Shown here: positions 2,300 through 54,649 of the stretch, piece by piece
Position numbering within the stretch: position 1 is the stretch's first letter
Layout: every line of letters begins with the position of its first letter
Source of the DNA: Siphonodentalium dalli
Lineage: Eukaryota > Mollusca > Scaphopoda > Gadilida > Siphonodentaliidae
Reading direction: 5' to 3'
Length of the DNA stretch: 64,000 nt
Assembly: GCA_032622095.1 (NCBI GenBank)
Contig: CP136067.1
Span: 178,966,556-179,030,555 of the forward strand
Made by a program: the position numbers and the translations under genes
The notes under the pieces: model-generated
Told to the model about the DNA's origin: nothing
What the model saw: only the letters and a program-made list of their open reading frames with translations
Database searches by the model: none

Positions 2300-4920
2300 C
2301 TGAACAGTGATACAATTCACTTAGGTTTCTTTCAGGAAGAAAGTTTTTAGCTCTATTAATTGCATATATAGCCCTCGACATCTTATTTGCAACAGCAGAT
2401 ACATGGTAATTAAATGTTAAATTCTCATCAATATGAATACCAAGGAACCTAAATGATTTCTCATCACAACTGTTCCCGATTCGGTCAATACTTGGCCATT
2501 TATATTGAGATGATATCTATAGCAATCAAGATTTCCACCAACAGGATGAAACAATATTTATTTGTTATTTTTTAGCATTTAGAGACAATTTATTAACTTG
2601 ACACCATTTATTAAATGATTCTAGCTGATTGTTTGTGTATTCAGAAAGGGTTTCCAGGTCTTTGTTTGATGAGTAAACAGTTGTGTCATCTGTGAGAGAA
2701 CAGACAATTTAGTACTGCGATGCATATCGTTAACATAGATAAGGAAATGTATCGGGCCCAGTACATATCCTTGAGGGACACCGGTTACAACTGGTTGTTT
2801 GGATGATATGTAGCCATACATATCTGCATATTGGTATCTATCATTAAGGTAACTGGCAAACCATTTTTTCATGTTTCCCCTGATGCCATAGAAGTCTAAT
2901 TTGGCTAATAGTATATCATGATCTAAAGTATCAAAGGCCTTTGAAAAGTCAATAAAGGTTGTCAGAGTACTGTATTTTGTTTTTTATCATTGTTTTTGGC
3001 AACATCGCTTAGTATCTTAAGTATGGGGTGGACAGTTGAATGACCATTTCGAAAGCCATATTGGTCATTATAAAATTTATCAGCGAAGAAATCTAATAAT
3101 CGTCTGCAAACCACTTTCTCAAGTATTTTTGAAAAGACTGGAAGGATACTTATTGAACGATGGTTTTCTATTGATTTGATATCATTAGATTTGTATAACG
3201 GAATAACTCTAGCTACTTTCATGTCATTTGGAACAACACCTTTTTCTATTGAAATAATTATTATGTGGCATAATGGAGATAATATTTCACAAATTATACT
3301 TTTTATTAGAGCAGTTGACATTCCATCTTTATCTTTACTATTTTTTTTATTTATCATTTTAACAATATCATTTAGTTCATGTACAGTTGTAGGATGAGTA
3401 AACCTGTTTCTGACAGAGGGAATATCCAAGTATTCCGAAGTTATGATTTCGAATTACTATCTATTTGTTCTTGTTCCCGAACACCAATAGTAGAGATTAA
3501 ATTCCTCAGCCACGCTTTGTTTATCGTGTATAATTATGCCATTTATGTCAAAGCGCTGGGGATAATGTTGGTTTTACTACTCTGTTGGGTAACATCCCTC
3601 AATACTTCCCATGTTTTTTTCATATCAGACGTATGAGAGTTCAAGAGATTTTCGTTATAAGACATTTTTATGAATCTTTTGATTCGGTTAATGTATTTAC
3701 AATATTTTTTATATTGTAAAATCTTACAATTAGTTGGATCTCTCAATTTTCCCCTATATAATTTCTCTGTATGTATTGATGCATTCAGGAGACAATCTGT
3801 CATCCATGGTTGTCATTTTATGTATTTACGTGTGAGTTTGACTTCTTTTAGTGGGAAGGCAATATTAAAAGAATTAGTGAAAATCTTCATAAAAGTGTTA
3901 TATGTATAATTGGGGTCATTTGAATGAAAAATGGCGTCATAGTTTTTAGAAGACAAGATACGACTAAAACATGAAATATTTTCCTCAGTGAAGCTTCTTA
4001 GCTTCTTAGTTTCTGGCTGTTGGTTCGCCTTGTACGTAGTAATTTCACGATAAAACATTCCAAAATGATCACTAACATCAGCCAAAATTATCCCAGATTG
4101 AAAAGCAGATAAAGGATCATTGGTGAGTGTTTGATCAATCAGACTTGCTGTATATGCTGTTACTATGCTGTTGTCTAAGAATAGTTGGCCCAAAAAATCT
4201 TCAGCAACGACTGTATTTATGAATTCATTTGTTTTTACATGTAGTCCAAATTTAAGAAGATCAATATTAAAGTCCCACAGTAAAAAAGCTTTTTTATGTT
4301 CAGAATTTATTCTATTCATAAGTTCTTTCGTAGTTTTTATGAATCTGTCAATGTCTGATTTAGGTTGTGTATTAGGTCTATAAATAATTCCTTCAATATA
4401 AGATTTGTTTATGAGATTCATTAATTTCTATGAACAGTGACTCAAAAATGTGGGGAAGAAATATAAATAATTCCTTGCTAATTTTATAATTAATGTCAAT
4501 CCTAATGTAAAGCCCTACTCCTCCTCTGGAATCGTCATCATCTGGTCTACATCTTTTTATAAGAGGATGATAGTCATCTAAGGGAAAGTTAATGTTATCC
4601 GGAGCTCGAAATATTTCAGTAAGTCCTATTATACCAAATTTATCCTTTTTGTTTTGAAGTTCAAACATTAAAGAATTGAAAGCATCCCAATTACTGTTTA
4701 AACTTTGACAATTTAAGTTAAACAATGATAAACGACTCTTGTCATCAGAAATCATATTGTTGTATTCTTCAGGTGAGAAGTATTGTGTAGAATTTGCACG
4801 CTCAAGGGATTATCATTAATATCATTCTGCATATCAGAGCCCATTTCATATTTATTTATGAAGTCATAGTTTTTATTCCGTTTTATCTCATAAAATCCAA
4901 TGGTATTTTGATGAACCATT
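2300..4920 (-). pseudogene. decayed APE-type LINE (CR1/jockey-like), near full length
   Basis: On the minus strand the pieces read in order from high to low coordinates. The APE endonuclease N-terminus is about 4393-4755 (SLFNLNCQSLNSNWD, GLTEIF). A middle piece is 3813-4421 (YRPNTQ, a degenerate LLWDFNIDLL in place of GDFN, and SDHFGMFY). The RT fingers and palm are 2962-3429 (PLYKSNDIKSIENHRSISIL, QYGFRNGHST). A further RT block is 2621-2872 (GVPQGYVLGPIHFLIYVNDM), followed by the thumb (ESFNKWCQVNKLSLNAKK). The pieces are in different frames with stops and frameshifts, and the catalytic YADD is not recoverable (SVLSQMTQLF). More coding-like sequence reaches about 4895. The element interrupts the satellite field. 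Confidence 0.85.
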
Positions 4921-6154: not shown

Positions 6155-6520
6155 TGTTTGAATTGACCTTGTCCCATACCCTGGGGTAAATATAGAGTTA
6201 TTATCGTGTTCCGTGATGACCTAGTTCACCGAAAGCCTAGCTGCGCGCGGTCCCTTTTCGGTATATATATGCCAGTTATGTCAGGAAAGCCCAAATATTC
6301 CCCAATATGCCACCACGGTGCCTGCGAATTGACTTTGTCTCATACCTTAGGTTAATATCGAATAATTATCTAGTTTCCCTATTTTTGGGGCTGTGATGAC
6401 CTAGTCTATCAAATTTTAAGCTAAGCTGTGTGTGACCCTTTTCCGGTATACATATGCCAGCTGATTCAGTAAACCCCAATTATGCCCCGATACGTCCCCA
6501 CGGGGCCTGTGAATTGACCT
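6155..6520 (-). repeat. ~180-bp satellite, segment 2 (reverse orientation)
   Basis: About two monomers read as the reverse complement of the 1375-2290 consensus (GTGATGACCTAGTT, CGGTATATATATGCCAGTTAT, CATACCCTGGGGTAAATAT). The 260 bp that follow (to 6785) carry no recognisable feature. Confidence 0.8.
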
Positions 6521-6784
6521 GGAAAGAGGCTGCCGCTTTGATGGCAGACATCTATACTTTCACATCTATACTTTCACTCATAATTTTACGTAACACAAAT
6601 ATACTAAACAGTACTAATAATGTCATATATAAATCACTCAATATGCAATTAAACCACCATTTGAAGACGTTATAGATTTCGTCATCAAGTTGAAGAACAC
6701 ATTAAGTGCTACCAACGATATTGATACCTATACTCAGGTCACGATTGTTCTGAACCACCTCTGGTATAGCCCTAGAGGCGAGAA

Positions 6785-8043
6785 TGGTACATATCGGGGC
6801 ATCGTTGGGCTTTACTGACATACCTGGCATATATATATACCAAAAAAAACGACCGCACGCAGCTAGGATGTTGATTAACTAGGTCATCACGGAACCAAAA
6901 CATCAGGGTAACTAGATGATTATTCGATATTTACCATATGGCACGAGACAAGGTCAATTCACAGGCCCCGTGTGGGCATATCGGGCATATTTAGGCTTTA
7001 CTGATATAATTATCATACATATATTGAAAAGCACCACGTACAGCTAGGCTTTTGATAAAATAGGTCATCACGGAACCCAAATATAGGGAAATTATATAAT
7101 TATTCGATATTTACCATATGGCACGAGACAAGGTCAATTCACAGGCCCCGTGGGGGCATATCGGGGCATAGTTGGGCTTTGCTGATGTATCGGACAAACC
7201 AGGGAAACTAGATAATTATTCGATATTTACGAGACAAAGTCAATTCACAGGCACGTTGGGAACATATTGGACATAGTTAGGCTTTATTGATATCATTATC
7301 ATACATATATTGAAAAGGACAACACGCAGCTAGGATTTTGATAAACTAGGTCATCACGGAACCCAAAAATATGGAAATTAGATAATTATTTGATATTTAC
7401 CATAGGGTATGAGACAAGGCCGTTTCAAATGCCCCGTGGCGGCACATCGGGGCATAATTGGGCTTTCCTGATATAACTGGCACATACATACCGAAAAAGG
7501 ACCACACGCAGCCAGGCTTTTGATTATTGAGGTCATCACGGAACCCAAAAATAGGGAAATTAGATAATTATTCAATATATTCGATTATTCGATATTCCAT
7601 AGGGTATGAGACAAAATAATTCACAGGCCTCGTGGGGGACATATCGGGGCAGAGTTAGGCTCTACTGATATAAATAGCATATATTTATTGGAAAAGGACC
7701 ACACGCAGCTAGGCTTTTGATAAACTAGGGCATCACGGAACGCAAAAATAGGGAAATTATATAATTATTCGATATTTACCATAGGGTATGAGATAAGGTC
7801 ATTCACATGCCCACGGGGTCATATCGGGTCAGTGTTGGGCTCTACTGATGTACCTGGCATATATATACTGGAAAAAAGACCACACGTCCCCAGGGTTTTG
7901 ATAAAATAGGTCATCGCGGTACCCAATAAATAAGGATAATTGATAACTATTCTATTTTATTTACCCTAGTGTATGAGACAAGGTCAATTCACAGGCCACG
8001 TGGGTGATATGTCGGGGTACAGTTGGGCTTTTCGGATATATCT

Positions 8044-8046
<3 letters not shown>
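6785..8046 (+). repeat. ~180-bp satellite, segment 3
   Basis: About seven monomers in plus orientation. The spacing of ATTCACAGGCCCCGTG between 6956 and 7136 gives a period of 180 bp; one or two units are shortened (about 7190-7260). The array ends in the (TA)n tract into which the Penelope composite is inserted and resumes at 18394. Confidence 0.88.

Positions 8047-8076
<30 letters not shown>
8047..8076. repeat. (TA)n tract, left flank of the Penelope composite
   Basis: A pure TA run joins the satellite directly to the first base of the element. A matching TA run flanks the right end at 18366-18393. The low complexity hides any target-site duplication. Confidence 0.9.
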
Positions 8077-8079
<3 letters not shown>

Positions 8080-10251
8080 AAGTTCTTATCAATATATGAT
8101 AACACCAATTAAAGACCCATCAAATCTTTAATGTCGTACTAGCTTTCGGCTATACAGCCTTCGTCGGGTACATGAATGAACAATCATTTGAAAATACACA
8201 TTGATATACAGACAAACTTGTTTACCGCGTAACTATGACGTTAACGAACGTTACCTGACAAAATTTGGCGCCAAATGAAAAATGGCGGGAAAGCTTACAG
8301 GTGAAAGACGCGCCAAACATAGAAGCTACATGTGTAGCGTTGTGAAGAAAAGTCAATGCTTGAGTATATGGGAACTCATCTAGCTTAGAAGCAGTCCATA
8401 CAATGTATAAGCATATTTTAGATAATTAGAGTTGGACCAAGGAGAAATTGTAAATTATGACCAACTCGCCATGAAACCACGGTCCTTATTAATGCCACGA
8501 TAAAAACTTCCAAACAGTTGTATATGTTGTAATTCGCCACACGTCTCTCTTTCATGTCCGAAAGTCCACCTCTTAATACTTTGATGCGGATGTCATCGGG
8601 TGTGTGTTGTGGTTGACAGAAATGTTCTGCTATGGGTAGGTTCAAGTCCCTGTTGTTGATGTTCTGCCTATGCCCCGTCACTCGTTTGCAGAGAAGTTGG
8701 CCTGTTTCACCAATGTAATGCATTTCTGGACAATTTGCGCACGTAATGATATACACAACACCACTTGAGACACACGAGAACTGGCCCACATCCTGGAAAA
8801 CGCGCCCATTGCGCATAAGAACATCGGCCTTGTTAATTAACACACACATACCACATCTCGGCCTGTTACATGGAAATGTACCATTGGGTGACTGTCCACC
8901 AGAAGATGGTAGCTTACTTGTTACTAATTTCCGCTTCAAGTTGGGTGGTTGCCTCATGGCGACAACCGGTCTTTCGTTAAACACGTTCCTGAGATGAAGG
9001 TCGCTCGTAATAATGCCATTCAGAGATGTAGTTATTGTGCGTAATTTTTCTAGCTGTGGGTGGTAGTTTACCACGAGGGGAACTCGATCTGATGATGTTT
9101 TGTCCCGATATTGAAGGAGCATCTCCCTGTCCAAACATTTCGCTTTTCCCAATTGTTTATTAATCGAACGTCTGTCGTATCCCAAATTCGAGAATTGTGA
9201 GCGTAGTTCACTGAACTGTTCGTCTCTTACTTTTTCCTGAGAATTGATGCGCTGGTAACGAATGCCTTGACTGTAGATAATGGCTTGTTTCGTGTGGTCG
9301 GGATGAAAACTAATGGGGTTTAGATATGAAAATCTGTCCGTAGGTTTTCTGAATACCTTTGTGAATAACTGATCGGCATTGTTTTCGACTGTAACATCGA
9401 GAAAGCTGATATCGGTGTGAGAAAATTCCATTTTGAACTGGATTGAAGGATTGCACTGATTGAATGCTCGATGAAATATTTCCAATTCAGCGACTCCGTG
9501 TTCCCATATCATGAATATGTCGTCGATAAACCTGAGATAAATTCGCGGTTTGAGAGTCTGTGTAGCTAAGAACTTTTCCTCCAACTCTGTCATGAATATA
9601 TTGGCATATTGGGGCGCCATGGGTGTCCCCATTGCAGTACCTTTAATTTGTCTGTAAAACTTATTCTCGAACACGAAATAGTTATGTTTAAGAATATATT
9701 CAATTAACTTTATAACCGAATCTTTAGTTACTCCGTCTGATTCAGTCTCATCGTCGTGAAATCTCTGTCGAACTGCCGCTATGCCATCTGTGTGTTCAAT
9801 TTGAGAATATAGGGACACCACATCCATGGTGACTAACAGGGTATCCGAACTTGTTGTTCCAACGGCCTTTAATTTCCTGATAAAATCGGTAGTATCCTGT
9901 ATGAAGCTATCTGACGCGCGAACTGTCGGTTTGAGTGTATCATCGACATAACTCGAAATTTTCTCGGTTATGGTTCCAATTCCCGAAACGATGGGTCTTC
10001 CGGGGTTCCCTTCCTTGTGAATCTTGGGCAGGGTGTAGAAGATACCCGGTCGCGGTTTTGAAACGGTAAGCGGGGAGATAATATTCCTATCTACCGCTGG
10101 GAGTTCCGCCAAAAGTTGTGAAAGTTCTTTTTCGAAATCGGCAGTGGGATCCTCTTCAAGACAAACATAAAACTCCCGATTGTTAAGTTGCCGTTTCGCT
10201 TCATGAATGTACGCTGTCTTATCCATCACAACAGTGGCACCACCCTTATCA
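8077..10251 (-). mobile_element. inverted, 5'-truncated Penelope-like element copy
   Basis: This ~2.17-kb stretch is almost identical to the reverse complement of about 16150-18325 in the full-length copy. Its truncated 5' end meets the plus-strand copy head-to-head near 10250, where the two parents share about two bases (CA). Its 3' end faces outward into (TA)n. An inverted partial copy joined at its 5' end is a familiar Penelope arrangement. Confidence 0.9.
8142..8185 (-). ncRNA. hammerhead-like motif, inverted copy
   Basis: The minus strand carries CCGACGA, a small stem-loop (GGC TGTATA GCC), then GAAA, followed by GCTAGTACGAC. This order matches a hammerhead core (CUGANGA, stem II, GAAA). 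Position 4 is C instead of the normally essential U, and stem III is unclear, so activity is doubtful. Confidence 0.35.
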
Positions 10252-10262
10252 TGGCGCCCCAA
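8418..10262 (-). pseudogene. Penelope-like RT/GIY-YIG ORF, inverted truncated copy
   Basis: The frame encodes most of the Penelope reverse transcriptase and the GIY-YIG endonuclease. It begins at KGGATVVMDK, so the N-terminal domain is missing. Seen in order are TLPKIHK, TMDVVSLYSQI, GTAMGTPMAPQYANIFM, the catalytic RFIDDIF box, the Cys-rich knuckle NRPRCGMC, GVVYIITC and YIGETGQ. Relative to the other two copies one C is missing near 8535. This shifts the last ~30 codons out of frame and replaces the normal end (ASWS). The first residues come from the inversion junction, so this is not a functional gene. Confidence 0.9.
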
Positions 10263-11417
10263 TATGCCAATATATTCATGACAGAGTTGGAGGAAAAGTT
10301 CTTAGCTACACAGACTCTCAAACCGCGAATTTATCTCAGGTTTATCGACGACATATTCATGATATGGGAACACGGAGTCGCTGAATTGGAAATATTTCAT
10401 CGAGCATTCAATCAGTGCAATCCTTCAATCCAGTTCAAAATGGAATTTTCTCACACCGATATCAGCTTTCTCGATGTTACAGTCGAAAACAATGCCGATC
10501 AGTTATTCACAAAGGTATTCAGAAAACCTACGGACAGATTTTCATATCTAAACCCCATTAGTTTTCATCCCGACCACACGAAACAAGCCATTATCTACAG
10601 TCAAGGCATTCGTTACCAGCGCATCAATTCTCAGGAAAAAGTAAGAGACGAACAGTTCAGTGAACTACGCTCACAATTCTCGAATTTGGGATACGACAGA
10701 CGTTCGATTAATAAACAATTGGGAAAAGCGAAATGTTTGGACAGGGAGATGCTCCTTCAATATCGGGACAAAACATCATCAGATCGAGTTCCCCTCGTGG
10801 TAAACTACCACCCACAGCTAGAAAAATTACGCACAATAACTACATCTCTGAATGGCATTATTACGAGCGACCTTCATCTCAGGAACGTGTTTAACGAAAG
10901 ACCGGTTGTCGCCATGAGGCAACCACCCAACTTGAAGCGGAAATTAGTAACAAGTAAGCTACCATCTTCTGGTGGACAGTCACCCAATGGTACATTTCCA
11001 TGTAACAGGCCGAGATGTGGTATGTGTGTGTTAATTAACAAGGCCGATGTTCTTATGCGCAATGGGCGCGTTTTCCAGGATGTGGGCCAGTTCTCGTGTG
11101 TCTCAAGTGGTGTTGTGTATATCATTACGTGCGCAAATTGTCCAGAAATGCATTACATTGGTGAAACAGGCCAACTTCTCTGCAAACGAGTGACGGGGCA
11201 TAGGCAGAACATCAACAACAGGGACTTGAACCTACCCATAGCAGAACATTTCTGTCAACCACAACACACACCCGATGACATCCGCATCAAAGTATTAAGA
11301 GGTAGACTTTCGGACATGAAAGAGAGACGTGTGGCCGAATTACAACATATACAACTGTTTGGAAGTTTTTATCGTGGCATTAATAAGGACCGTGGTTTCA
11401 TGGCGAGTTGGTCATAA
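10251..11417 (+). pseudogene. 5'-truncated Penelope-like ORF inside the left pseudo-LTR
   Basis: The open frame starts in the RT palm (MAPQYANIFM) and keeps the catalytic RFIDDIF box, the RT thumb, the Cys knuckle (NRPRCGMC), the GIY-YIG pair (GVVYIITC, YIGET) and the normal terminus ASWS. The fingers and the first catalytic Asp (TMDVVSLY) are missing, so it cannot encode an active RT. It is a by-product of the tandem pseudo-LTR arrangement. The codons just upstream belong to the inverted arm. Confidence 0.88.
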
Positions 11418-11698
11418 TTTACAATTTCTCCTTGGTCCAACTCTAATTATCTAAAATATGCTTATACATTGTATGGACTGCTTCTAAGCTAGATGAGTTC
11501 CCATATACTCAAGCATTGACTTTTCTTCACAACGCTACACATGTAGCTTCTATGTTTGGCGCGTCTTTCACCTGTAAGCTTTCCCGCCATTTTTCATTTG
11601 GCGCCAAATTTTGTCAGGTAACGTTCGTTAACGTCATAGTTACGCGGTAAACAAGTTTGTCTGTATATCAATGTGTATTTTCAAATGATTGTTCATTC

Positions 11699-11742
11699 AT
11701 GTACCCGACGAAGGCTGTATAGCCGAAAGCTAGTACGACATT
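11699..11742 (+). ncRNA. hammerhead-like motif in the left pseudo-LTR
   Basis: Same core as the other copies: CCGACGA, stem II GGC/GCC, GAAA. It sits about 60-100 bp before the end of the truncated copy and about 100 bp upstream of the full-length ORF, where Penelope-like elements commonly carry type I hammerheads. The C at core position 4 argues for a decayed ribozyme or a variant. Confidence 0.4.
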
Positions 11743-11836
11743 AAAGATTTGATGGGTCTTTAATTGGTGTTATCATATATTGATAAGAACTTCCTATTAG
11801 ACCAGACCCATACGGCTAAAGATACAACACTACAAT

Positions 11837-12012
11837 ATGTCAGTCAACACCGCAATCAGCCGAGATGAGTGGAAAATCAAGAAAATTCACAGACAATACG
11901 CACAGACAAATAGCGACATCTTTTTTCTATCGGAATGCAAACAGAGATCTCTCATCCCGAATGGAATAGTTATCAAGAATCCGCTGCAAAATACATTCAA
12001 AACTCCATTCTC
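11837..12012 (+). CDS. Penelope-like element ORF, N-terminal segment (split by a LINE)
   Basis: The ATG at 11837 opens a frame of 58 complete codons with the wording of PLE N-termini (DIFFLSECKQRSLIPNGIVI). The frame is cut at 12012 by a LINE. The LINE's target duplication ATTCTC lies at 12007-12012 and again at 15501-15506. The interrupted codon (TC) is completed by the base at 15507, and the frame then runs to 17946. The pre-insertion ORF would be about 871 codons. The ATG lies just after the region shared by both pseudo-LTRs, which supports this start. Confidence 0.85.
12007..12012. repeat. target-site duplication of the LINE, left copy (ATTCTC)
   Basis: ATTCTC occurs here and again at 15501-15506, immediately flanking the LINE. 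Keeping one copy restores the Penelope reading frame. Confidence 0.8.
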
Positions 12013-12038
12013 CTTATACCTTATGATACCTTATGCTG

Positions 12039-15000
12039 TTAGTGGACGCTGGCTTCTGCCACTATGTCCACGTCTTCTGTGTCTGGCTCTCCGAATTCAC
12101 CAAATTCAGGCCCTATGTTGTTAAGTCTATCTAACGCCCGACTCGTCTGTGAACTTGTCAAACCCAATTTTGCTTTAAAATCAAGTCTCACCTCTTGTTC
12201 CATCCAATAATCATCTAGTCGATTTTTGAATTGGTTTAAACTGTCGGCGTTAACTACCTCTTCTGCTAATTGGTTCCAGGGCTCCACAACTCTCTGACTA
12301 AAAGTGTGTTTTCTTGTGTCTCTGGTTGCCCCTTCTAAAAACAGCTTGAAGTTGTGGCCTCTGGTTTTGGATTCGGAGTTCCGTGTCAGTATATTTGCTA
12401 CTTCCGGGTCATATGTATTGAAAATTTTGTAGCATTCTATCATATCTCCTCTATGTCGTCTATATTGCAGGGTGGGAATCTTTAGTTTTTCAAGTCTGTC
12501 TTCATATGGTAAATGTTTTAAAGTAGGAACTAGTTTTGTTGCTCTGCGTTGGACTTTCTCAAGTTGGGTGATGTGTTTGATCAAATATGGTTTCCATGCT
12601 GGCTGTGAATACTCTAATCTTGGTCGAACCAACCCTTTATACAGTTTCGTCATCATTTCTTCATCTAGATGTGTAAACGATCTTCTAATCATCCCCATCA
12701 CTGATTGAGCGCTCTGTGCTTTTTCATTTATATGTTGTTCAAAATTTAAGTTTTTATCTGTGGTGATGCCTATGTCCTTCTCGCTGTCGACCTGCTTCAG
12801 TGTGTAGGTTGTTCCATCAACTCCCTTCAAAGTATAATTTGGAGTATATCCTTCTTTTCCAATGTTCATCATTACACATTTCTCAGGATGGAAACGAAGA
12901 AGCCATTTATCAGACCATTTTTGTAGTTCATTAAGATCTTGTTGTAGAGTTTCCATGTCGTCTGGTGTTGTTATCTCTCTGAATACTTTGGTATCGTCAG
13001 CGTACATCATGACATCAGATTTTGTTGAACTTGGCAAGTCATTTATATAGATGACAAATAGTAGTGGTCCAAGTACGCTTCCCTGAGGAATCCCACTGAT
13101 GACATTGTAGAATTTTGATTTCTCCCCATTTACAACTGCCCTTTGTCTTCTTCCACTCAGAAAATCCTTAATCCACCCTAATATGTTGCCTTTGATTCCA
13201 TATGCTTCTGTTTTTCCTATCAGTCTACGATGTGGCACAGAGTCAAACGCCTTCATGAAGTCCATGTATATTACATGTGTTGCTTGATTATTTTCTATAG
13301 ACTTTGTCCATCCTTCAAGTGTATTTAATAACTGTAATGTCGTTGAGCGCCCTTTTATGTATCCGAATTGATTTTTGCTGAATAGTTTATTGTTTCTCAT
13401 ATGGTCCATGATCCTGTCTCTTATGACTGATTCTAGTACTTTGCAGACTACGCTCGTAAGGCTGATTGGACGATAGTTGTTAGCTTTAGTGGCTCCACCT
13501 TTCTTATATATTGCTGATATATTTGCATCCTTCCATTCGTTTGGTAACTGTCCTAGTCTGAGGCTGTTATTATAGATTATTGCTAATGGCTTGCTTAATT
13601 CTTGCGATAATTCTTTCAATATTCTTGGATGTATCCCATCTGGTCCCAGAGATTTGTTTTGATTTAGCTTCAATAGTCTGATCTGAATTCCTTCTGCTAA
13701 TACTTCTAGATCCTCTAGTTCATGTTCTATTACCAGGTCTTCAATTCGTGGAATCTTTCCTTGTGGCTCATTTGTGAAGACGCTAGAAAAGAATTCTGCA
13801 AGTACATCCGCTTTCTCTGCATCTGTTGTTGTTGTTGTTCCATCTTTCTTCTCCAAGTTTGGGACACCATTTCTTGTTTTTGAGCGTCTCGCTATGTAGT
13901 CCCAGAATTTTTTAGGGTTAGTTTTCGCCTTGTCGGCAATGTCTTTCTCGTGCACTATCTGTTTCTGTCTTGTTGCTGTCCTTACTTGATTTCTCAGGCG
14001 AGTATACTTTTTATAATTCTCTTCTGTTCTAGATTCCATGTATCTTGTCCACATTCTATGCTTCTTCTTCACAAGCTCCCTGGTTTTTATGTCAAGTGGC
14101 ATTCTGTTTTTAGATTTTGTTGACTTTGTTCTCGATGGTATATTTTTTTCAACTGTGTCTTCCAGTACTAGACAGAAGCGCTTCCACTGTTTGTTTATAT
14201 CATCTTTGCAGTCCTCTAGAAATTTACTCCAGTCCATGTCAAGATCTTTCTTCATCTGTGCGTAGTTTCCAGCCGAGTAGACTTTTTTCTTTAAATTATT
14301 TATTGGTGTGTAGCACTTGAAGTTGAAGTCAATCATGGAGTGGTCACTCTTTCCCAGTGGGCTGCAAATCTTTATGTTGGTAATCATATTTTCTTCATTT
14401 GTCAGTACCAGATCTAGTGTATTTGCCCTCTGTCCTAACCTTCCTCTTGTTGGCTCTAGAATGTGTTGCGTTAAGAAGCTTTCAGTTATAGTATTGATGA
14501 AATCTTCTCCTTTCTTGTTTGTAGCTGTCTGTGCTTTCCAATCAATGGATGGATGGTTAAAATCTCCCATGAGTAGAATGTGTGAATAATCCCTATTTCT
14601 GCATATTTCCTTTATTGTTTTGTTTATTTTGTCATCATTTTCTTCTGTACTTGTGTTAGGGCTTCTATATACAACTCCTATCAGCATTTTGTCCCTTTTT
14701 TCCAGTTTAACTGTTATCCATGCAGCTTCACTCAGTTCTTCGTTTATAATTTGTTCTTCTGCAGAGATATTCGCCTTCACATACATCAAGACTCCTCTTC
14801 CTTTGTTACTGGTTAAGTTCTTGTGGATCATGATGTAACCGTCTAATGTATATAACGCAGGTAGGATGTCCTTGCTTTTCTTCGGCTTAACCTCTGTGAT
14901 GCATATTATGTCATACTTCTCTTCTTCAACCAAGTGTCTGAGCTCATTCATTTTGTTTGACAGACTATCTGCATTTAGGGATAAAATGTGTAGTCCCTCC

Positions 15001-15146
15001 ACACTGTGCAAATGTTTTGGTGCTTTTGGTGCATTTGGTGCAATTAACGTATTTACAGGTTTCCTCTTCTTTTTGAGGCCTACCTCACTTCTTTTTTCTT
15101 TACCTTCTTCAGAGTCCATGGAGGGCCCCGAACCTGATAGAACCAC
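12039..15146 (-). CDS. LINE ORF2: APE endonuclease and reverse transcriptase
   Basis: 1035 residues, uninterrupted. The APE nuclease occupies roughly residues 50-280: LSLNADSLSNKM, ICITEVKPK, GVVYRSPN, ILLMGDFNHPSIDW (catalytic Asp/Asn), NTLDLVLTN and KSDHSMIDF (catalytic Asp-His). The RT follows: LGPDGIHPRILKEL, NYRPISLTSVVCKVLE, NQFGYIKGRSTT, YMDFMKAFDSVPHRRL (first catalytic Asp), GIPQGSVLGPLLFVIYINDL and MMYADDTKVF (catalytic pair). A thumb and a C-terminal tail (FSQRVVEPWNQL) end it. It resembles CR1/Rex1/jockey-superfamily proteins; the clade is not fixed. The start overlaps ORF1 by 67 bp in another frame, so reinitiation or frameshifting may be used. All visible catalytic motifs are intact, so it could be an active enzyme. 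Confidence 0.93.
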   Translation of the reverse strand: MVLSGSGPSMDSEEGKEKRSEVGLKKKRKPVNTLIAPNAPKAPKHLHSVEGLHILSLNADSLSNKMNELRHLVEEEKYDIICITEVKPKKSKDILPALYTLDGYIMIHKNLTSNKGRGVLMYVKANISAEEQIINEELSEAAWITVKLEKRDKMLIGVVYRSPNTSTEENDDKINKTIKEICRNRDYSHILLMGDFNHPSIDWKAQTATNKKGEDFINTITESFLTQHILEPTRGRLGQRANTLDLVLTNEENMITNIKICSPLGKSDHSMIDFNFKCYTPINNLKKKVYSAGNYAQMKKDLDMDWSKFLEDCKDDINKQWKRFCLVLEDTVEKNIPSRTKSTKSKNRMPLDIKTRELVKKKHRMWTRYMESRTEENYKKYTRLRNQVRTATRQKQIVHEKDIADKAKTNPKKFWDYIARRSKTRNGVPNLEKKDGTTTTTDAEKADVLAEFFSSVFTNEPQGKIPRIEDLVIEHELEDLEVLAEGIQIRLLKLNQNKSLGPDGIHPRILKELSQELSKPLAIIYNNSLRLGQLPNEWKDANISAIYKKGGATKANNYRPISLTSVVCKVLESVIRDRIMDHMRNNKLFSKNQFGYIKGRSTTLQLLNTLEGWTKSIENNQATHVIYMDFMKAFDSVPHRRLIGKTEAYGIKGNILGWIKDFLSGRRQRAVVNGEKSKFYNVISGIPQGSVLGPLLFVIYINDLPSSTKSDVMMYADDTKVFREITTPDDMETLQQDLNELQKWSDKWLLRFHPEKCVMMNIGKEGYTPNYTLKGVDGTTYTLKQVDSEKDIGITTDKNLNFEQHINEKAQSAQSVMGMIRRSFTHLDEEMMTKLYKGLVRPRLEYSQPAWKPYLIKHITQLEKVQRRATKLVPTLKHLPYEDRLEKLKIPTLQYRRHRGDMIECYKIFNTYDPEVANILTRNSESKTRGHNFKLFLEGATRDTRKHTFSQRVVEPWNQLAEEVVNADSLNQFKNRLDDYWMEQEVRLDFKAKLGLTSSQTSRALDRLNNIGPEFGEFGEPDTEDVDIVAEASVH

Positions 15147-15487
15147 TCCCCATCTGATTCATCCGTCTTCTTCTTTGCTTCTTCTAATAATTTCTTCCTG
15201 TCTTCTCTGTCCTTCTTTGATAGATCATTTGCAAAGGTGATTTTTAGTCTTTTCTCTTTCAACTTTGGTCCAGTTCTCAGTATTTTATCCTTTACAGATT
15301 CATTTTCAAATGTGATTCTCAAGGGACGTGGTCTGTCTTGGTCTTCAGTCTTCTTTCCCAACCTCACCAACTGCTTCATTTTAATTTCTTGTGGGTTTTC
15401 TATGTCGATATTTCTGCAGAGATCCTTAAAACTGTTAGCATCATCCTCCCTGGCAGTTGTACTTTCTGTTGCACTCGACTCTTCCAT
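15080..15487 (-). CDS. LINE ORF1 (possibly truncated)
   Basis: 135 residues from ATG to stop. The protein is highly charged and resembles the C-terminal part of LINE ORF1 nucleic-acid chaperones: MKQLVRLGKKTEDQDRPRPL, then ITFENESVKDKILR, then a Lys/Arg-rich segment (LSKKDREDRKKLLEEAKKK). The usual coiled coil or zinc knuckle upstream is absent, and only 13 bp precede the ATG before the insertion boundary. The visible ATG may therefore be an internal Met of a longer ORF1. It overlaps the start of ORF2. Confidence 0.7.
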   Translation of the reverse strand: MEESSATESTTAREDDANSFKDLCRNIDIENPQEIKMKQLVRLGKKTEDQDRPRPLRITFENESVKDKILRTGPKLKEKRLKITFANDLSKKDREDRKKLLEEAKKKTDESDGEWFYQVRGPPWTLKKVKKKEVR

Positions 15488-15500
15488 GTTAAAAACAATT

Positions 15501-15506
15501 ATTCTC
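15501..15506. repeat. target-site duplication of the LINE, right copy (ATTCTC)
   Basis: Partner of the copy at 12007-12012; the Penelope ORF resumes with the next base. Confidence 0.8.
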
Positions 15507-17946
15507 GGATAAATTGTGCAGAAGAACCAGCGAACGATTACTCAAACATCTCATAGACATCATGTACAGCCGGAAAATAAGTTTGAAGAACAGCATACGT
15601 GAATACATGGACACCAACGTGAGTCTTGACAAACATAATATATATAAATATTATAATGACTGCCTACATTCCCAGATGACTAAAAAGAGGAAAAAACTTT
15701 CGAACTTAAAATCAAAAAGCTGTCCCATCGACGGAGACATCAATGCTGAAACATCCAATACCAATTCCAACGTAGTTAATTTATCGGAATACGAACTCTC
15801 CGATACCGAGAGAAGTGTACTCGAGAAAGGACTTTCATTCTGCCCTACAGCTAAATTTGACAAAGTAAAATTCTGTGATGATTTGGAACAATACTTTCGC
15901 AGGCTACGACTAAAAGAATATTTCTATGGGAGGGAAAAACAGTTTAATAACAAACAAGCAAAGCAATCGGACTGGACACCGCCCCCTGGGAGAAATGCTT
16001 CTTTAGACGTATACATTGACACTTTCAGAGAGAGGGCGAAAGCTCAAATTCTTTCGAAAAAGCAGAAGTTATTATACAATCTCCGACCTTTAGAACGACG
16101 AGCCATCAGAACACTGCAGAACAAAAGAGATATTGTCATCAAACCGGCTGATAAGGGTGGTGCCACTGTTGTGATGGATAAGACAGCGTACATTCATGAA
16201 GCGAAACGGCAACTTAACAATCGGGAGTTTTATGTTTGTCTTGAAGAGGATCCCACTGCCGATTTCGAAAAAGAACTTTCACAACTTTTGGCGGAACTCC
16301 CAGCGGTAGATAGGAATATTATCTCCCCGCTTACCGTTTCAAAACCGCGACCGGGTATCTTCTACACCCTGCCCAAGATTCACAAGGAAGGGAACCCCGG
16401 AAGACCCATCGTTTCGGGAATTGGAACCATAACCGAGAAAATTTCGAGTTATGTCGATGATACACTCAAACCGACAGTTCGCGCGTCAGATAGCTTCATA
16501 CAGGATACTACCGATTTTATCAGGAAATTAAAGGCCGTTGGAACAACAAGTTCGGATACCCTGTTAGTCACCATGGATGTGGTGTCCCTATATTCTCAAA
16601 TTGAACACACAGATGGCATAGCGGCAGTTCGACAGAGATTTCACGACGATGAGACTGAATCAGACGGAGTAACTAAAGATTCGGTTATAAAGTTAATTGA
16701 ATATATTCTTAAACATAACTATTTCGTGTTCGAGAATAAGTTTTACAGACAAATTAAAGGTACTGCAATGGGGACACCCATGGCGCCCCAATATGCCAAT
16801 ATATTCATGACAGAGTTGGAGGAAAAGTTCTTAGCTACACAGACTCTCAAACCGCGAATTTATCTCAGGTTTATCGACGACATATTCATGATATGGGAAC
16901 ACGGAGTCGCTGAATTGGAAATATTTCATCGAGCATTCAATCAGTGCAATCCTTCAATCCAGTTCAAAATGGAATTTTCTCACACCGATATCAGCTTTCT
17001 CGATGTTACAGTCGAAAACAATGCCGATCAGTTATTCACAAAGGTATTCAGAAAACCTACGGACAGATTTTCATATCTAAACCCCATTAGTTTTCATCCC
17101 GACCACACGAAACAAGCCATTATCTACAGTCAAGGCATTCGTTACCAGCGCATCAATTCTCAGGAAAAAGTAAGAGACGAACAGTTCAGTGAACTACGCT
17201 CACAATTCTCGAATTTGGGATACGACAGACGTTCGATTAATAAACAATTGGGAAAAGCGAAATGTTTGGACAGGGAGATGCTCCTTCAATATCGGGACAA
17301 AACATCATCAGATCGAGTTCCCCTCGTGGTAAACTACCACCCACAGCTAGAAAAATTACGCACAATAACTACATCTCTGAATGGCATTATTACGAGCGAC
17401 CTTCATCTCAGGAACGTGTTTAACGAAAGACCGGTTGTCGCCATGAGGCAACCACCCAACTTGAAGCGGAAATTAGTAACAAGTAAGCTACCATCTTCTG
17501 GTGGACAGTCACCCAATGGTACATTTCCATGTAACAGGCCGAGATGTGGTATGTGTGTGTTAATTAACAAGGCCGATGTTCTTATGCGCAATGGGCGCGT
17601 TTTCCAGGATGTGGGCCAGTTCTCGTGTGTCTCAAGTGGTGTTGTGTATATCATTACGTGCGCAAATTGTCCAGAAATGCATTACATTGGTGAAACAGGC
17701 CAACTTCTCTGCAAACGAGTGACGGGGCATAGGCAGAACATCAACAACAGGGACTTGAACCTACCCATAGCAGAACATTTCTGTCAACCACAACACACAC
17801 CCGATGACATCCGCATCAAAGTATTAAGAGGTGGACTTTCGGACATGAAAGAGAGACGTGTGGCCGAATTACAACATATACAACTGTTTGGAAGTTTTTA
17901 TCGTGGCATTAATAAGGACCGTGGTTTCATGGCGAGTTGGTCATAA
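15507..17946 (+). CDS. Penelope-like RT plus GIY-YIG endonuclease, main segment
   Basis: About 810 residues with no stop. An N-terminal basic region (RTSERLLKHLI, MTKKRKKLSNLKSK) leads into the Penelope-clade RT: KPADKGGATVVMDK (about residue 207), GIFYTLPKIHK, TMDVVSLYSQI with the first catalytic Asp (about 353), GTAMGTPMAPQYANIFM, RFIDDIF with the catalytic Asp pair (about 452) and SFLDVTV. A linker with NRPRCGMC (about 672) precedes GVVYIITC and YIGETGQ (about 708-728), the GIY-YIG nuclease, with HRQNI and IAEHF after it. Known PLEs nick the target with this nuclease and extend the cut end by reverse transcription. The segment is intact except for the LINE upstream. It is most like the Penelope/Poseidon group; that placement is by eye only. 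Confidence 0.93.
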
Positions 17947-18360
17947 TTTACAATTTCTCCTTGGTCCAACTCTAATTATCTAAAATATGCTTATACATTG
18001 TATGGACTGCTTCTAAGCTAGATGAGTTCCCATATACTCAAGCATTGACTTTTCTTCACAACGCTACACATGTAGCTTCTATGTTTGGCGCGTCTTTCAC
18101 CTGTAAGCTTTCCCGCCATTTTTCATTTGGCGCCAAATTTTGTCAGGTAACGTTCGTTAACGTCATAGTTACGCGGTAAACAAGTTTGTCTGTATATCAA
18201 TGTGTATTTTCAAATGATTGTTCATTCATGTACCCGACGAAGGTTGTATAGCCGAAAGCTAGTACGACATTAAAGATTTGATGGGTCTTTAATTGGTGTT
18301 ATCATATATTGATAAGAACTTCCTATTAGACCAGACCCATACGGCTAAAGATACAACACT

Positions 18361-18367
<7 letters not shown>
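16779..18367 (+). repeat. right pseudo-LTR of the Penelope composite
   Basis: Direct repeat of 10250-11838 with the same length. It covers the 3' half of the ORF and the 3' UTR, and ends with the ~40 bp (ACCAGACCCATACGGCTAAA region) that also precede the ORF at 11837. It runs straight into (TA)n. Confidence 0.92.
18228..18271 (+). ncRNA. hammerhead-like motif in the right pseudo-LTR
   Basis: Same motif as in the left pseudo-LTR, with one change in stem II (GGC to GGT). This turns a G-C pair into a G-U pair and so preserves pairing. A single change is too little to prove selection. Confidence 0.4.
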
Positions 18368-18393
<26 letters not shown>

Positions 18394-18394
<1 letters not shown>

Positions 18395-19575
18395 GGAAAA
18401 GGACCACACGCAGCTAGGATTTTGTTAGGACCACACGCAACTAGAATTTTTATAAACTAGGTCATCATGGAACAGCAAAATATGGAAATTAGATGATATT
18501 CGATATGTACCACATGGTTTGAGCCAAGGCCAATTCAAAGGCCCCGTGGGAACATATCGGGGCATAGTTAGGCTTTTCTGATATAACTAACATAAATATA
18601 AGGGAAAAGGACCATACGCAGCTAGCTTTTGATAAACTAACGGAACTCAAAAATAGGGAAAGTAGATAATTATGCGATATTTACTCTAGGGTATGAGCCA
18701 AGGTCAATTCACAGACGCCGTATTATCGGGGCATAATTGGCGTTTCCTGGATGAAATGGTAAATTTATACCGGAAAAGGGCCACACGCAGCTAGCCTTTT
18801 GATAAACTAGGTCATCATGGACCACAAAAATAAGGAAATTATATCAGTATTCGATATTAACCCTAGGGCACGAGACAAGGTCAATTTACATGTCCCTTGG
18901 TGGAAATGTGGGGGAATAGTTGGGCTGTGCTGATATATCTGACCTCCCTATACCGGAAAAGGACCACACGCAGCTAGGATTTGTATAAACTAGGTAATCA
19001 CCGAACCCAAAAATAGGGAAATTAGATAATTATTCTGTATTCACACCAGAGTGTGAGACAATGTCAACTCACAAGCCCCGTTGGGGGATATATCGGGGCA
19101 CAGTTGGGCTTTCCTGACATACCTGACAAATATACCTATACCGGAAAAGGACCACATGCAGCTAGGCTTTTGATAAATAGAGAAATTAGATAATTATTAT
19201 ATATATACCCAAGGGTATGAGACAAGGTCATTTCACATAACCCGTGTTGGACACATCGGGGCATAGTTGGGCATTACTGATATATCTGGCATATATATAC
19301 GTAATAGGAACAACACAACTAGGCTTTTTTTTATAAACCAGGTCATCACGAACCCAAAAATAGGGAAATTAGATAATTATTCGATATTTACCCTTTGGTA
19401 TGAGACAATTTCAAATCACAGACCCCGTTGTGGACATATCAGGGCATAATTGGGCATTACTGATATGTTTTGCATATATATACCGGAAAGACCACACGCA
19501 GCTGGGCTTTTGATAAACTAGGTCATCACGGACCCCAAAATATAGGGAGATTAGATATTTATTCGATATTAACTT
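18394..19575 (+). repeat. ~180-bp satellite, segment 4
   Basis: Six to seven monomers of the same family as 6785-8046. The array continues where that one was cut by the Penelope composite (TATACCGGAAAAGGACCACA follows the TA tract). No genes. Confidence 0.88.
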
Positions 19576-21640
19576 TATAGTTTGTCAAACGCCAAGCTGC
19601 ATGTGGTCCTTTTCCGGTATATATACGCCAGATAAATCCAAAAAGCCCAACTCTTCCCCGATACCAAGGGGCCTGTGAAATGGCCCTGGTCTCATACCCA
19701 AGGGTATATATAGAATAACTATCAAATTTCCTTATTTTTGGGGTTCCGTGATGACGTGCGGTCCTTCTCCAATATATATATCGTAGTTATATCAGTAAAA
19801 ATCAACAATACCGCGATATTTTCCCACGGAGCCTGTGAATTTAGCATGTCTCATACCCTAGGGTAACTATCGAATATCATTTAATTTCCTTAAAATTGTG
19901 TTCCGTGATGACCTAGTTTATAAAAAATCATTGCTGCATGTGGTCCTTTTCCGGTATATGTGCCAGATATATCCGAAAAGCCTAACTGTACCGGATATGT
20001 CGCACCGGGGCCTGTGAAATAAAACCATGCCACATACCCTAGTGTAAATATAGAATAATTATCAAATTTCCTTATTTTTTTTGGTTCCGAGATGAACTAG
20101 TTCATCAAAATCCTAGCTCCATGTGGTCCTTTTTCGGTATATATATATATATATATATATACCGAAAAAGGACCACATGGAGCTAGGATTTTGATGAACT
20201 GGGTCATCATGGAACCCAAAAATAGGGAAATTATATAATTATTCGATACTTGCATTGACGGTGTCTCATACACTAGGGTCAATATTGAATATCATATAGT
20301 TTCGCTATTTTGCTGTTACATGATGATGTAGTTTATCAGAAGCCTAACTGCGTGTGGTCCTTTCCCAGTATATGTATGCCAGGTATATCAGAAAAGTCGA
20401 ACTTTACCCAGATATGCCCCCCCACGGGGTCTGTGAAGTGACCTGGTCTCATACCCTTGGGTAAGTATCGAATAATTATATAATTTCCCTATTTTTGGGT
20501 TCCATGATGACCCAGTTTATCAAAAGCCTAGCTGCGTGTGGTCCTTTCCCAGTATATGTATGCCAGGTATATCAGAAAAGTCGAACTTTACCCAGATATG
20601 CCCCCCACGGGGTCTGTGAATTGACCTGGTCTCATACCCTTGGGTAAGTATCGAATAATTATATAATTTCCCTATTTTTGGGTTCCATGATGACCCAGTT
20701 TATCAAAAGCCTAGCTGCGTGTGGTCCTTTCCCAGTATATGTATGCCAGGTATATCAGAAAAGTCGAACTTTACCCAGATATGCCCCCCACGGGGTCTGT
20801 GAATTGACCTGGTCTCATACCCTTGGGTAAGTATCGAATAATTATATAATTTCCCTATTTTTGGGTTCCATGATGACCCAGTTTATCAAAAGCCTAGCTG
20901 CGTGTGGTCCTTTTCCGGCATATATATGCCAATTATATCAGTAAAGGTCGATATGCCTTGTTAATTGCCCTTGTCTCGTGCATTATTGTATATATCGAAT
21001 AATTATATAATTTTCCTATTTTTGGTTTTCGTGATGACCTAGTTTATCGAAAGCCTAGCTGCGTGTGATCCTTTTCCGGCCTATATATGCCAGGTATAAA
21101 AATATAGCCCGACTATTCCCCAATATGTCTCAAACGGGGCCTGTGAAAAAGCCTTGTCTCATACCCTAGGGTAAATTACGAATAATTATCTAACTTCCCT
21201 ATTCTTGGGTTCCTTCATGAACTAGTTTATAAAAATCCTAGCTGCTTGTGGTCCTTTTCCGGTATATATATGCGATATATATACGAAAAGCCCAGCTGAG
21301 CACCCATATGTCACCCCCCCCCCCCCCCCGGTCTAATCCCTAGGGTAAATATAGAATAATTATTTTTGGAAATACCAAGCACACCAATAAAGCCCAACTA
21401 TGCCCCGATATACCCCCGCACGGTGCCTGTGAACTGACCTTGTCTTATACCCTATGGTGTAAATATCGAATAATTATATATATTCCCTATTTTTGGGTTC
21501 CATGATATCAAAAAGCCTAGCTGTGTGTGGTTCTTTACCAATATATACATGTTAGTTATATCAGTACAGCCTAATTATGCACCGATATGCCCCAAAGCCT
21601 CTGAATTGACATGGGTCTCATACCCTAGGGTAAATATCGA
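19576..21640 (-). repeat. ~180-bp satellite, segment 5 (mostly reverse orientation)
   Basis: The orientation flips near 19575 and the monomers then read as reverse complements. Around 20130-20250 a short plus-orientation piece creates a palindrome centred on (TA)n near 20150. Three adjacent units (landmark TTTCCCAGTA at 20361, 20545 and 20728; periods 184 and 183) are almost identical, which shows recent local amplification. A poly-C run lies at about 21317. Confidence 0.87.
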
Positions 21641-30862: not shown

Positions 30863-33800
30863 ATATGAGATATGAGATATGAGATATTTTCTCGTTTTCT
30901 GAATTGTAATTTATATTTGGTCACTTCGATGTGATAATGTGCTTTTATACATTCGCTTCTGGTTTTAATGTGTTCCAAAGATTGATTGATCGTGGAAGGA
31001 ATGATTTCTGATAAGTAACTGAGTTGCAGAAGGGTACTCTAAGGTCATCTGATCTCGTGTCATATCCACTTGAACGCGATACTTTATTCGGAACAGCATT
31101 GTATAAGTAAGGGTGAGTGAGTTTTTTTCGTCATTTTAAAATATAGTATAAGTTTAGAATTTTCTCTCCATTTTGATAATTTGTCCCACCCAACTTCTTG
31201 GAGAACTATGTCTTTATTACAACTTCTCGTCCCACCGGTTACTATTGTAGCTGCTTCATATTGGATATCTTCTAGGGAATCGGCATCTTCGCCTGTACAG
31301 TTGTCCCATACCGAGGAAGTATATTCCAAGACAGGTCGAATATATGACAAATAGATTCTTTCTAAAGTTCTTCTGTCAAGGATAAATTTATACTTCCTCA
31401 GTATGTACATTCTTTTGGTCGCTCGATTTTCAATATCTTCTATATGGTCGGTTGAATGTCAGACCCAAATGTTTATGTGTTTCCACCTCATCTATTCTCT
31501 CGTTGGACATTTTTAATACTGGTTGGTAAATGGGTATTTGTTTCCACGATACAAGCAAGGATTCTGTTGTCAATGGGTTGAATTTAACTGCCCAGGTCTT
31601 CGACCAGTTGAATATTTTGCGTAGGTCTGGTTTTATCACCTCTGCAGAAATTATGGGATCTTCTATAGAAATATAAAGTGATGCATCATCCGCAAATAAC
31701 CGTACGTTGCATGTAATTCCATCGATTATGTCGTTTATATACACGAGAAAGAGAAGAGGGCCGAGTATGGATCCTTGGGCACTCCTGTTTTAACTTCTTT
31801 CCGTGGAGAATTAAAATTAGAAATTGTTACTCTTTTGTGTCTATTATCGAGATAGTTTTCCAAGAGTTTTAAAAATCTTCCCTGTTATCCCCATTCTTTT
31901 AAGCTTAAAAATGAGACCCCTGTGCCAGACTTTATGAAACGCCTTGCTTATGTCGCAGAATACACCCCTTATTTCCTTCCCGTCATCAAGGGCTGAGATA
32001 ATATAATGATAAATATCAATTAATTGGAATACGGTGCTATCATGCAGTGTAAATCCTGATTGTAGGTCGCTTAAAAGCTTATGCGTTCGAAGGTATTTTG
32101 ATATATGATAGAATATACATTTCTCAAAAACCTTTGAAAGACAACTAAGCAAAGATACTGGTCGATAATTGGATGGATCGCTGGGATCTCCCTTTTTGAA
32201 AATTGGGCATACGTTTGCTTTTTTCCATTCTGATGGAAAGCACGATCGTTCAATGAAAATCTTGAAAGCAAATGCTAGTGGTTTGGCTAGCGATATCGAA
32301 CAATTTTTCAAAACTTTGGGACTAATACCGTCGTAACCGGCCGCTTTATATGTTTGTATTGAGTTTAAACTTTCTAGTACACGTTCGTAAGTTATTTCAA
32401 TTTCGCCCAGGCGTGCATTCGTCAACCAGTCAAAGAGGGGTAACTCTAACGTATCTTCATCGAGTATGGAGGAGATTTTACAAAAATTATTATTTAATAT
32501 ATCTGCCTTTTCATCATTTCCGGTTATTACAATCTGGTCTGTTTTCAGGGCTGGTATTGGTTTAGATTCCGGTTTCATGAGGTGGTTTAATGTTTTCCAC
32601 AAGAGTGAGGAATCAGTGAAACAACTACCCAGTATTGACTGCGTTTTCTCCAGAGACTTTTGCTTGGAACGTCTGATTTTTGTTATAATTTCATTTCTTT
32701 TCTTTTTATAATTATTCCAGGCTTCGATGGTAGCTCCTTTTTTTGCCAAATTATACAAACGCTTCCTTTGTCTCATAAGTTTACGTAGTTTACATGTTAG
32801 CCATTCAGGCTCATTTTGTCGAATTGATACCTGTTTGTTTGGTATATATAGGTTCGCGATGTCTGTTATTTGTTTCGTTAGAGCTTCTGCTATTTCTTCA
32901 GATCGAATTGCTGAGATATCACTCTTAAAGTCCCATGCATTAAAGGCATTATTCATTGCGGAGTAATCGGCTCGATTATAATCCCATATCCTTCTTTTTA
33001 TGATTCCACTCGCTTCTTAACTTTCAAATTGGACAATGAAACCGGTTAAATCTGAAAAGAATGGATCTAAGATTTCATTCGATTCAACAATCTCAGGGTT
33101 ATATGTGAAATATAAGTATATAAGAGAAGAAGAACTTTCTGTAAAGTATGTAGCTTGTTTAATTATTTGCGTTAAACCAAAGCGCTGTTTAATATATTTA
33201 ATTGGTTTAGTTTCTAATGGTATTTGGTTTGAGTTAAAAATCTCCAGTAATTAGTATATGTGGGATATTAGAACGATCGCCCAATGCCATATCAATATTT
33301 GTATATATTTTCCCCATGTACTTATTGGTGTATTGGGTGGTCTATAAAACGTGCCAAGCAAAACTCTTTGTGGAGGTCGATACCTCTAGCCACACGCTCT
33401 GTCAGGGATTTGGAGGTCAGTACGTCTTTTGAAGTAAAATGAATCTCTTACATATACAGCAATATCACCACCCAACGTTAGACGGTCTCTCCTTTGTGGA
33501 GCATGGAATCCCCTTATTGACAATTCGTTATCGGAATTCGCATTTGAGAGCCATGTTTCCGTAAATGAAATAATATCAAAATTTCCGGCTTCTGCTAAGT
33601 ACATCTATTTTCGGTGCCAAACTTTGAATATTTAAACACATTAAAGTCAATGCTTGCTTGTCTACGTTGCTTTCTGTCGGACCCGGGTTTTTTTCTATGT
33701 CAAATGCCCGGTTTAAAATAGATGATAATACCTCAATCACCCATCGTCCCACTTCAGTCAGCGAATTCGTTATATATGGCACGTGTCGTACAACAAATTT

Positions 33801-54640: not shown

Positions 54641-54649
54641 CGGCAACTA

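Follow-up and report, generated by a model that had tools for sequence, protein, structure and literature searches.

A 64,000-nucleotide stretch of the genome of the scaphopod mollusc Siphonodentalium dalli (contig CP136067.1, positions 178,966,556 to 179,030,555; hereafter the window) carries three clustered copies of the 3′ part of one Penelope-like element (PLE): an inverted copy at 8077–10251, a direct copy at 10250–11838, and the end of a longer copy at 16779–18367. The analysis presented here suggests that this composite is probably the product of a single recent insertion into a (TA)n tract within a satellite monomer, in which target-primed reverse transcription started from both sides of the break and the two resulting strands were then linked, head to head, through 2 shared bp. 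The parts of the composite and its surroundings are as follows.

6789 to 8046, plus strand: left flank, a degenerate satellite array of ~183-bp units
8047 to 8076, no strand assigned: left (TA)n of 30 bp, bordering the inverted arm on its outer side
8077 to 10251, minus strand: inverted, 5′-truncated PLE arm of 2175 bp whose outer 3′ end has no tail; a 1-bp deletion at ~8537 shifts the frame
10250 to 10251, no strand assigned: head-to-head junction with 2 bp (CA/TG) shared
10250 to 11838, plus strand: direct, 5′-truncated upstream copy, the pseudo-long terminal repeat (pLTR) of a partial tandem, 1589 bp
11798 to 11838, plus strand: 41-bp tail (A+C 71%) between two putative reverse transcription start sites, found in the direct and right copies and not in the left arm
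16779 to 18367, plus strand: 3′ part of the longer copy, counterpart of the direct copy, ending with the tail at 18327–18367
18364 to 18391, no strand assigned: right (TA)n at the tailed outer end, 28 bp
18392 to 19573, plus strand: right flank, the satellite of the left flank in the same orientation

The copies were compared by searching the 64-kb window against itself with blastn and by aligning all three. An initial annotation, made from the letters of the sequence, had already described three copies of the same 3′ half lying together, and both comparisons bear this out, with identities ranging from 99.87 to 99.91%. In the self-comparison, the inverted arm (10251–8075, the match thus reaching into the (TA)n) aligns with 16149–18326 over 2178 columns at 99.91%, with one mismatch and one gap; the direct copy aligns with 16779–18367 over 1589 columns at 99.87%, with no gaps and the two mismatches that had been counted by eye; and the direct and inverted copies share 1548 columns at 99.87%, with one mismatch and one gap. 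The same annotation had also pointed to an equal length of the direct and right copies, which holds at 1589 columns each, but that length is set by the ends of the alignment and so is not independent evidence. Within 16149–18326 of the right copy, the three-way alignment contains three differences in total, each private to one copy: an A at 11304 in the direct copy, the 1-bp deletion at ~8537 in the inverted copy, and a T at 18244 in the right copy. This star pattern means that virtually a single sequence gave rise to all three copies not long ago, and their near identity, with one private change apiece, upholds the earlier view that the insertion is very recent. Some of the private differences may be mistakes made by the copying enzyme or introduced in the consensus, and three changes, one of them a possible consensus error, in copies of 1.6–2.2 kb are too few to yield a date. 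A tblastn search with the PLE reading frame returned no further copies in the window at E 1e-3.

The composite behaves as one insertion unit in one (TA)n tract, because joining its flanks restores one satellite monomer: when 7860–8050 is joined to 18388–18470 inside the (TA)n, the monomer falls in register with eight other aligned satellite stretches, the TA length at the join being our arbitrary choice. The inverted arm, the direct copy, and the long copy thus belong together, as the initial annotation had supposed in treating the composite as a unit. The left and right flanks match each other at about 72–76% in the same orientation and are not mirror images. Both outer ends of the composite are 3′ ends entering pure (TA)n, and the two flanking tracts (30 and 28 bp) exceed the seven others listed in the window (10–24 bp). 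The first satellite unit of the right flank (18389–18427) is a fragment of ~35 bp, with a motif spacing of 33 as against mostly 160–195 in the arrays; this fragment may predate the insertion or be its scar.

The composite terminates in a different 3′ end on each side. Both had been described as 3′ ends set in (TA)n, and the tracts at 8047–8076 and 18364–18391 agree with that description, but the final 41 bp seen on the right are missing on the left: the sequence leading into the (TA)n is ...ACTACAATAT on the right, whereas the left arm, shorter by 41 bp, closes with ...CTTCCTAT before its (TA)n. By comparison with published elements, the 41-bp difference corresponds to the PLE tail. In the rotifer Adineta vaga, a 31-bp extension is optional on one of the inverted pLTRs, and the inverted pLTR of Pen2a falls 37 bp short of its direct counterparts (PMC3846280). 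Work on the PLE enzyme of the lizard Anolis carolinensis reports that reverse transcription starts internally at two adjacent sites, most commonly in an AC-rich stem loop, that the PLE tail of 30–40 bp is the sequence between the two start sites, and that the enzyme in vitro cuts and extends both strands (PMC11167929). Both putative start sites in the window have TAT in common with the (TA)n target.

At the head-to-head junction the two sides share 2 bp (CA/TG) at 10250–10251, as originally noted, and in element coordinates their truncation points lie 630 bp from each other (16149 versus 16779). We found no extended palindrome at this inverted junction of the kind that the self-priming model for A. 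vaga needs. Over the first 20 positions, inverted-register matches number two, three, and four at centers 10250, 10251, and 10254, and seven at 10255 and 10256, where the 6-bp palindrome GGCGCC (10253–10258) lies; the longest exact inverted repeat found in 10150–10350 is 8 bp.

These features are best accommodated by a sequence of events in which the PLE nuclease would have cut both strands of the (TA)n in the satellite monomer, and both 3′ ends would have primed reverse transcription inside the element RNA, at start sites separated by 41 bp. Starting at the downstream site and so carrying the tail, the right-hand cDNA would span one whole unit and about half of the upstream tandem unit, ending at 10250; the left-hand cDNA, starting at the upstream site and lacking the tail, would run for ~2.2 kb. 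The two unfinished cDNA ends would then have been joined head to head at the 2-bp microhomology. The anole protein is a predicted dimer (PMC11167929), an arrangement that would suit priming from both ends.

Several observations weigh against this account, whose principal competitor is a snap-back: the cDNA extending leftward would have folded on itself once it arrived at 10250, paired by two bases with its own unit, and served as its own template for the inverted arm. The 2-bp junction alone could also result from such a snap-back, with a 3′ TG on an internal CA, and the head-to-head polarity is as expected; GGCGCC is 2 bp away from the junction, which is itself spanned by an 8-bp inverted repeat (10201–10208/10274–10281, 65 bp apart). 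Self-priming on an antisense template has, moreover, been proposed in print for A. vaga Penelope elements (PMC3846280). The published argument, however, depends on palindromes at the junction, and an inverted repeat of 8 bp is the longest seen here. A copy of the cDNA would be expected to reach the start of that cDNA, whereas the arm stops at the tail boundary, 41 bp before that start and directly on (TA)n. A bound protein could perhaps halt copying at the tail boundary; because snap-back alone leaves this end unexplained, we favor priming from both sides and regard snap-back as unlikely. Further points against the two-ended account are that the evidence comes from one locus, that the exact start is blurred by 3–4 bases because element and target share TAT, that the target duplication of the insertion is hidden in (TA)n on both sides, and that the start site in PMC11167929 is reported as non-homologous to the cut DNA. 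In the portion of that paper examined, a two-ended model for inverted pLTRs was not found stated, nor was one found applied to inverted pLTRs in the literature searched, although it may exist in further papers.

The remaining explanations fare less well. A composite that already included the inverted arm could have moved as a unit from an older copy elsewhere, and unrelated cargo framed by pLTRs, one of them inverted, has moved in A. vaga (PMC3846280); yet a transcript begun in the direct pLTR would presumably omit the inverted arm, and the left outer end falls on a boundary set by a start site, a coincidence not required of a 5′ RNA end, so that we hold this origin to be improbable. Very improbable, in our judgment, is an assembly or library artefact (a chimera or fold-back), to which one might attribute the sole private change of the inverted arm, a 1-bp deletion in a two-base run that could be a consensus error: the flanks match in the same orientation rather than as mirror images, the 41-bp tail is present at one outer end and not at the other, and the joined flanks stay in register. 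Independent insertions of two copies into one tract, in opposite orientations and fused later, would account for two outer 3′ ends in (TA)n, but no TA or satellite sequence lies between the arms at 10250 and the two arms have nearly the same sequence, and we give this history the smallest chance of all. Twin priming in the manner of L1, which had been suggested for the junction, also fits poorly. In L1 twin priming the inverted piece is a different, essentially non-overlapping stretch of the same RNA. Priming from both sides of the break as proposed here resembles it in the second priming from the break's other side, the inverted segment, and the microhomology; in contrast, both arms here cover the same 1.5 kb, including the 3′ region, and share 1548 columns of it.

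The element itself was assigned from its reading frame, domains, and structure, and it is interrupted by a second element. Its coding and related features are listed below.

11705 to 11728, plus strand: hammerhead-ribozyme-like core in the pLTR, found also at 8144–8167 (minus) and 18234–18257 (plus)
11837 to 12012, plus strand: 5′ part of the PLE reading frame, ahead of the nested element; the first ATG of the open frame is at 11837
12013 to 15500, minus strand: nested non-LTR (LINE-like) element of 3488 bp, antisense to the PLE, with limits that rest on a probable target duplication
12042 to 15158, minus strand: LINE open frame, 1039 aa stop to stop, with Exo_endo_phos and RVT_1 matches
15507 to 17946, plus strand: 3′ part of the PLE reading frame, encoding a reverse transcriptase and a putative GIY-YIG-like endonuclease
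16378 to 16923, plus strand: RVT_1 match, E 3e-7, 30.8 bits against a cut-off of 29.6
17638 to 17751, plus strand: GIY-YIG (PF01541) match, E 0.0018, 19 bits, under the curated cut-off of 22.6, obtained in a scan restricted to the C-terminal 181 aa

The open frame that carries the RVT_1 match runs from 15493 to 17946 (817 aa). When this whole frame was scanned, PF01541 was absent from the list at E 0.001; the translation can be read as VVYII...HYIGETG at the site of the sub-threshold GIY-YIG match. NCBIfam gave three matches for each protein, all generic and far under their cut-offs, and the single PDB match up to E 0.1 was 8bgj_A, a weak one at E 0.011. AlphaFold models from the single sequence, without an alignment, reached pLDDT values of 35.8 for the endonuclease part and 33.3 for the reverse transcriptase part, too low for use. 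Beyond the domains, the structural features of PLEs are present: the partial tandem that gives rise to pLTRs (10250–11838 repeating 16779–18367), the optional inverted pLTR (8077–10251), the likewise optional short 3′ tail, missing on the left only, and an AT-rich target, (TA)n within a satellite monomer. The element thus appears to fit an endonuclease-containing PLE in its reverse transcriptase, sub-threshold GIY-YIG match, partial tandem, inverted end, tail, and target, in keeping with the Penelope identity first given to it. A search for close relatives with the PLE protein in two open collections met the pattern in 1 viral-contig and 11 genome-contig stretches, none of which was confirmed.

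Canonical hammerhead ribozymes carry U at position 4 of the core. The hammerhead-like string in the pLTR, which occurs in all three copies (once with one mismatch), has C at this position. Its minimum free energy fold contains a stem I (GUAC/GUAC) and a stem II, but with a z of 0.30 is no better than those of shuffled sequences; Rfam returned no hammerhead match up to E 10, and the core pattern had no exact matches in the open viral-contig and genome-contig collections. Minimal hammerheads are documented in the pLTRs of PLEs (PMC7761336).

The longer copy had been called full-length. It is in fact split by the nested antisense LINE (~12013–15500), which had gone unremarked and which divides the N-terminal part of the PLE frame. 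The 3′ tail of the LINE consists of about two CATAAGGTAT units, and it is adjoined by the 6-bp sequence ATTCTC, which occurs at 12007–12012 and 15501–15506 and across which both PLE pieces are in the same frame. ATTCTC is a probable target duplication of the LINE, and we say probable because the search gave five matches of at least 6 bp. With the LINE and its 6-bp duplication subtracted, the tandem period of the PLE is 3035 bp. The LINE is apparently young; it could either have arrived after the PLE insertion or have sat inside the source copy, and we do not claim that it is younger than the PLE insertion, since the interrupted stretch occurs only once in the composite. Diverged relics akin to the LINE lie at 2696–3381 and 31240–32965 (tblastn, four pieces, 28–43% identity).

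Elsewhere in the window, the satellite motif flips orientation several times, at 19575–20260 and 6160–6840. The flip at 20107–20192 takes the form of an almost perfect palindrome centered on (TA)12, and 22 of the 29 Rfam matches were to microRNA families on the palindrome at ~20058–20242 (E down to 5e-13), with two more there to snoRNA families. All matches at this palindrome were below gathering scores, and we attribute them to the palindromic shape, with (TA)n as its loop, and not to microRNA genes. A tandem array at 54647–55836 has a 36-bp unit in 33 copies with a 96% match, and one frame per strand is open over most of its length.

The arrangement of the composite is documented as a typical PLE layout. 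PMC8969392 lists tandem 5′-truncated copies, inverted pLTRs, and short 3′ extensions among the features of PLEs, and PMC3846280 gives as the typical PLE structure a partial tandem beside which an inverted pLTR lies. The composite architecture is therefore already known for PLEs, and the value of the present case is its clarity as a young example. The composite resembles Pen2a_Av of A. vaga (PMC3846280) in its pLTR–ORF–pLTR partial tandem with an adjacent inverted copy, and in that the inverted copy is shorter at the tail end (by 37 bp in Pen2a_Av and 41 bp here). It differs in scale, with a pLTR of 1589 bp and an inverted arm of 2175 bp as compared with 218 and 181 bp, in the overlap at the junction (2 bp as against 15 bp), and in the target duplication, which is 9 bp in Pen2a_Av and unreadable in the (TA)n here. 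With PAc, the Poseidon element of Anolis carolinensis as described in PMC11167929, it shares a reverse transcriptase and, here putatively, an endonuclease in one frame, a hammerhead-like motif near the start of the frame, two start sites (putative here) with the tail between them, and an AT-rich target. It differs from PAc in that TAT is common to the (TA)n target and both putative start sites, and in that its hammerhead-like core has the noncanonical C.

How PLE integration is completed and how the inverted end originates are unsettled questions, for which self-priming (PMC3846280) and the cutting and extension of both strands, with two start sites in vitro (PMC11167929), offer different answers. 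The S. dalli locus is a very young insertion with a one-sided tail, no extended palindrome at its junction, and flanks in register, and as a naturally formed product it leans toward the latter picture. We would tentatively go further, at somewhat less than an even chance, and propose that inverted pLTRs of PLEs generally arise from symmetric two-ended priming: a dimeric ribonucleoprotein would cut both strands and use one start site per half, the presence of a tail at one end and its absence from the other would be the fingerprint of the process, and UAU at both sites, pairing with the end of the primer, would steer this particular PLE into (TA)n. The inverted arm and direct copy also form an inverted repeat at 8077–11797, with a stem of ~1.55 kb and a spacer of 0.63 kb in the self-comparison, which, if read through, would yield a long hairpin RNA that could feed small-RNA silencing of the PLE. 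Finally, the locus indicates what to count in a genome-wide survey of these elements.

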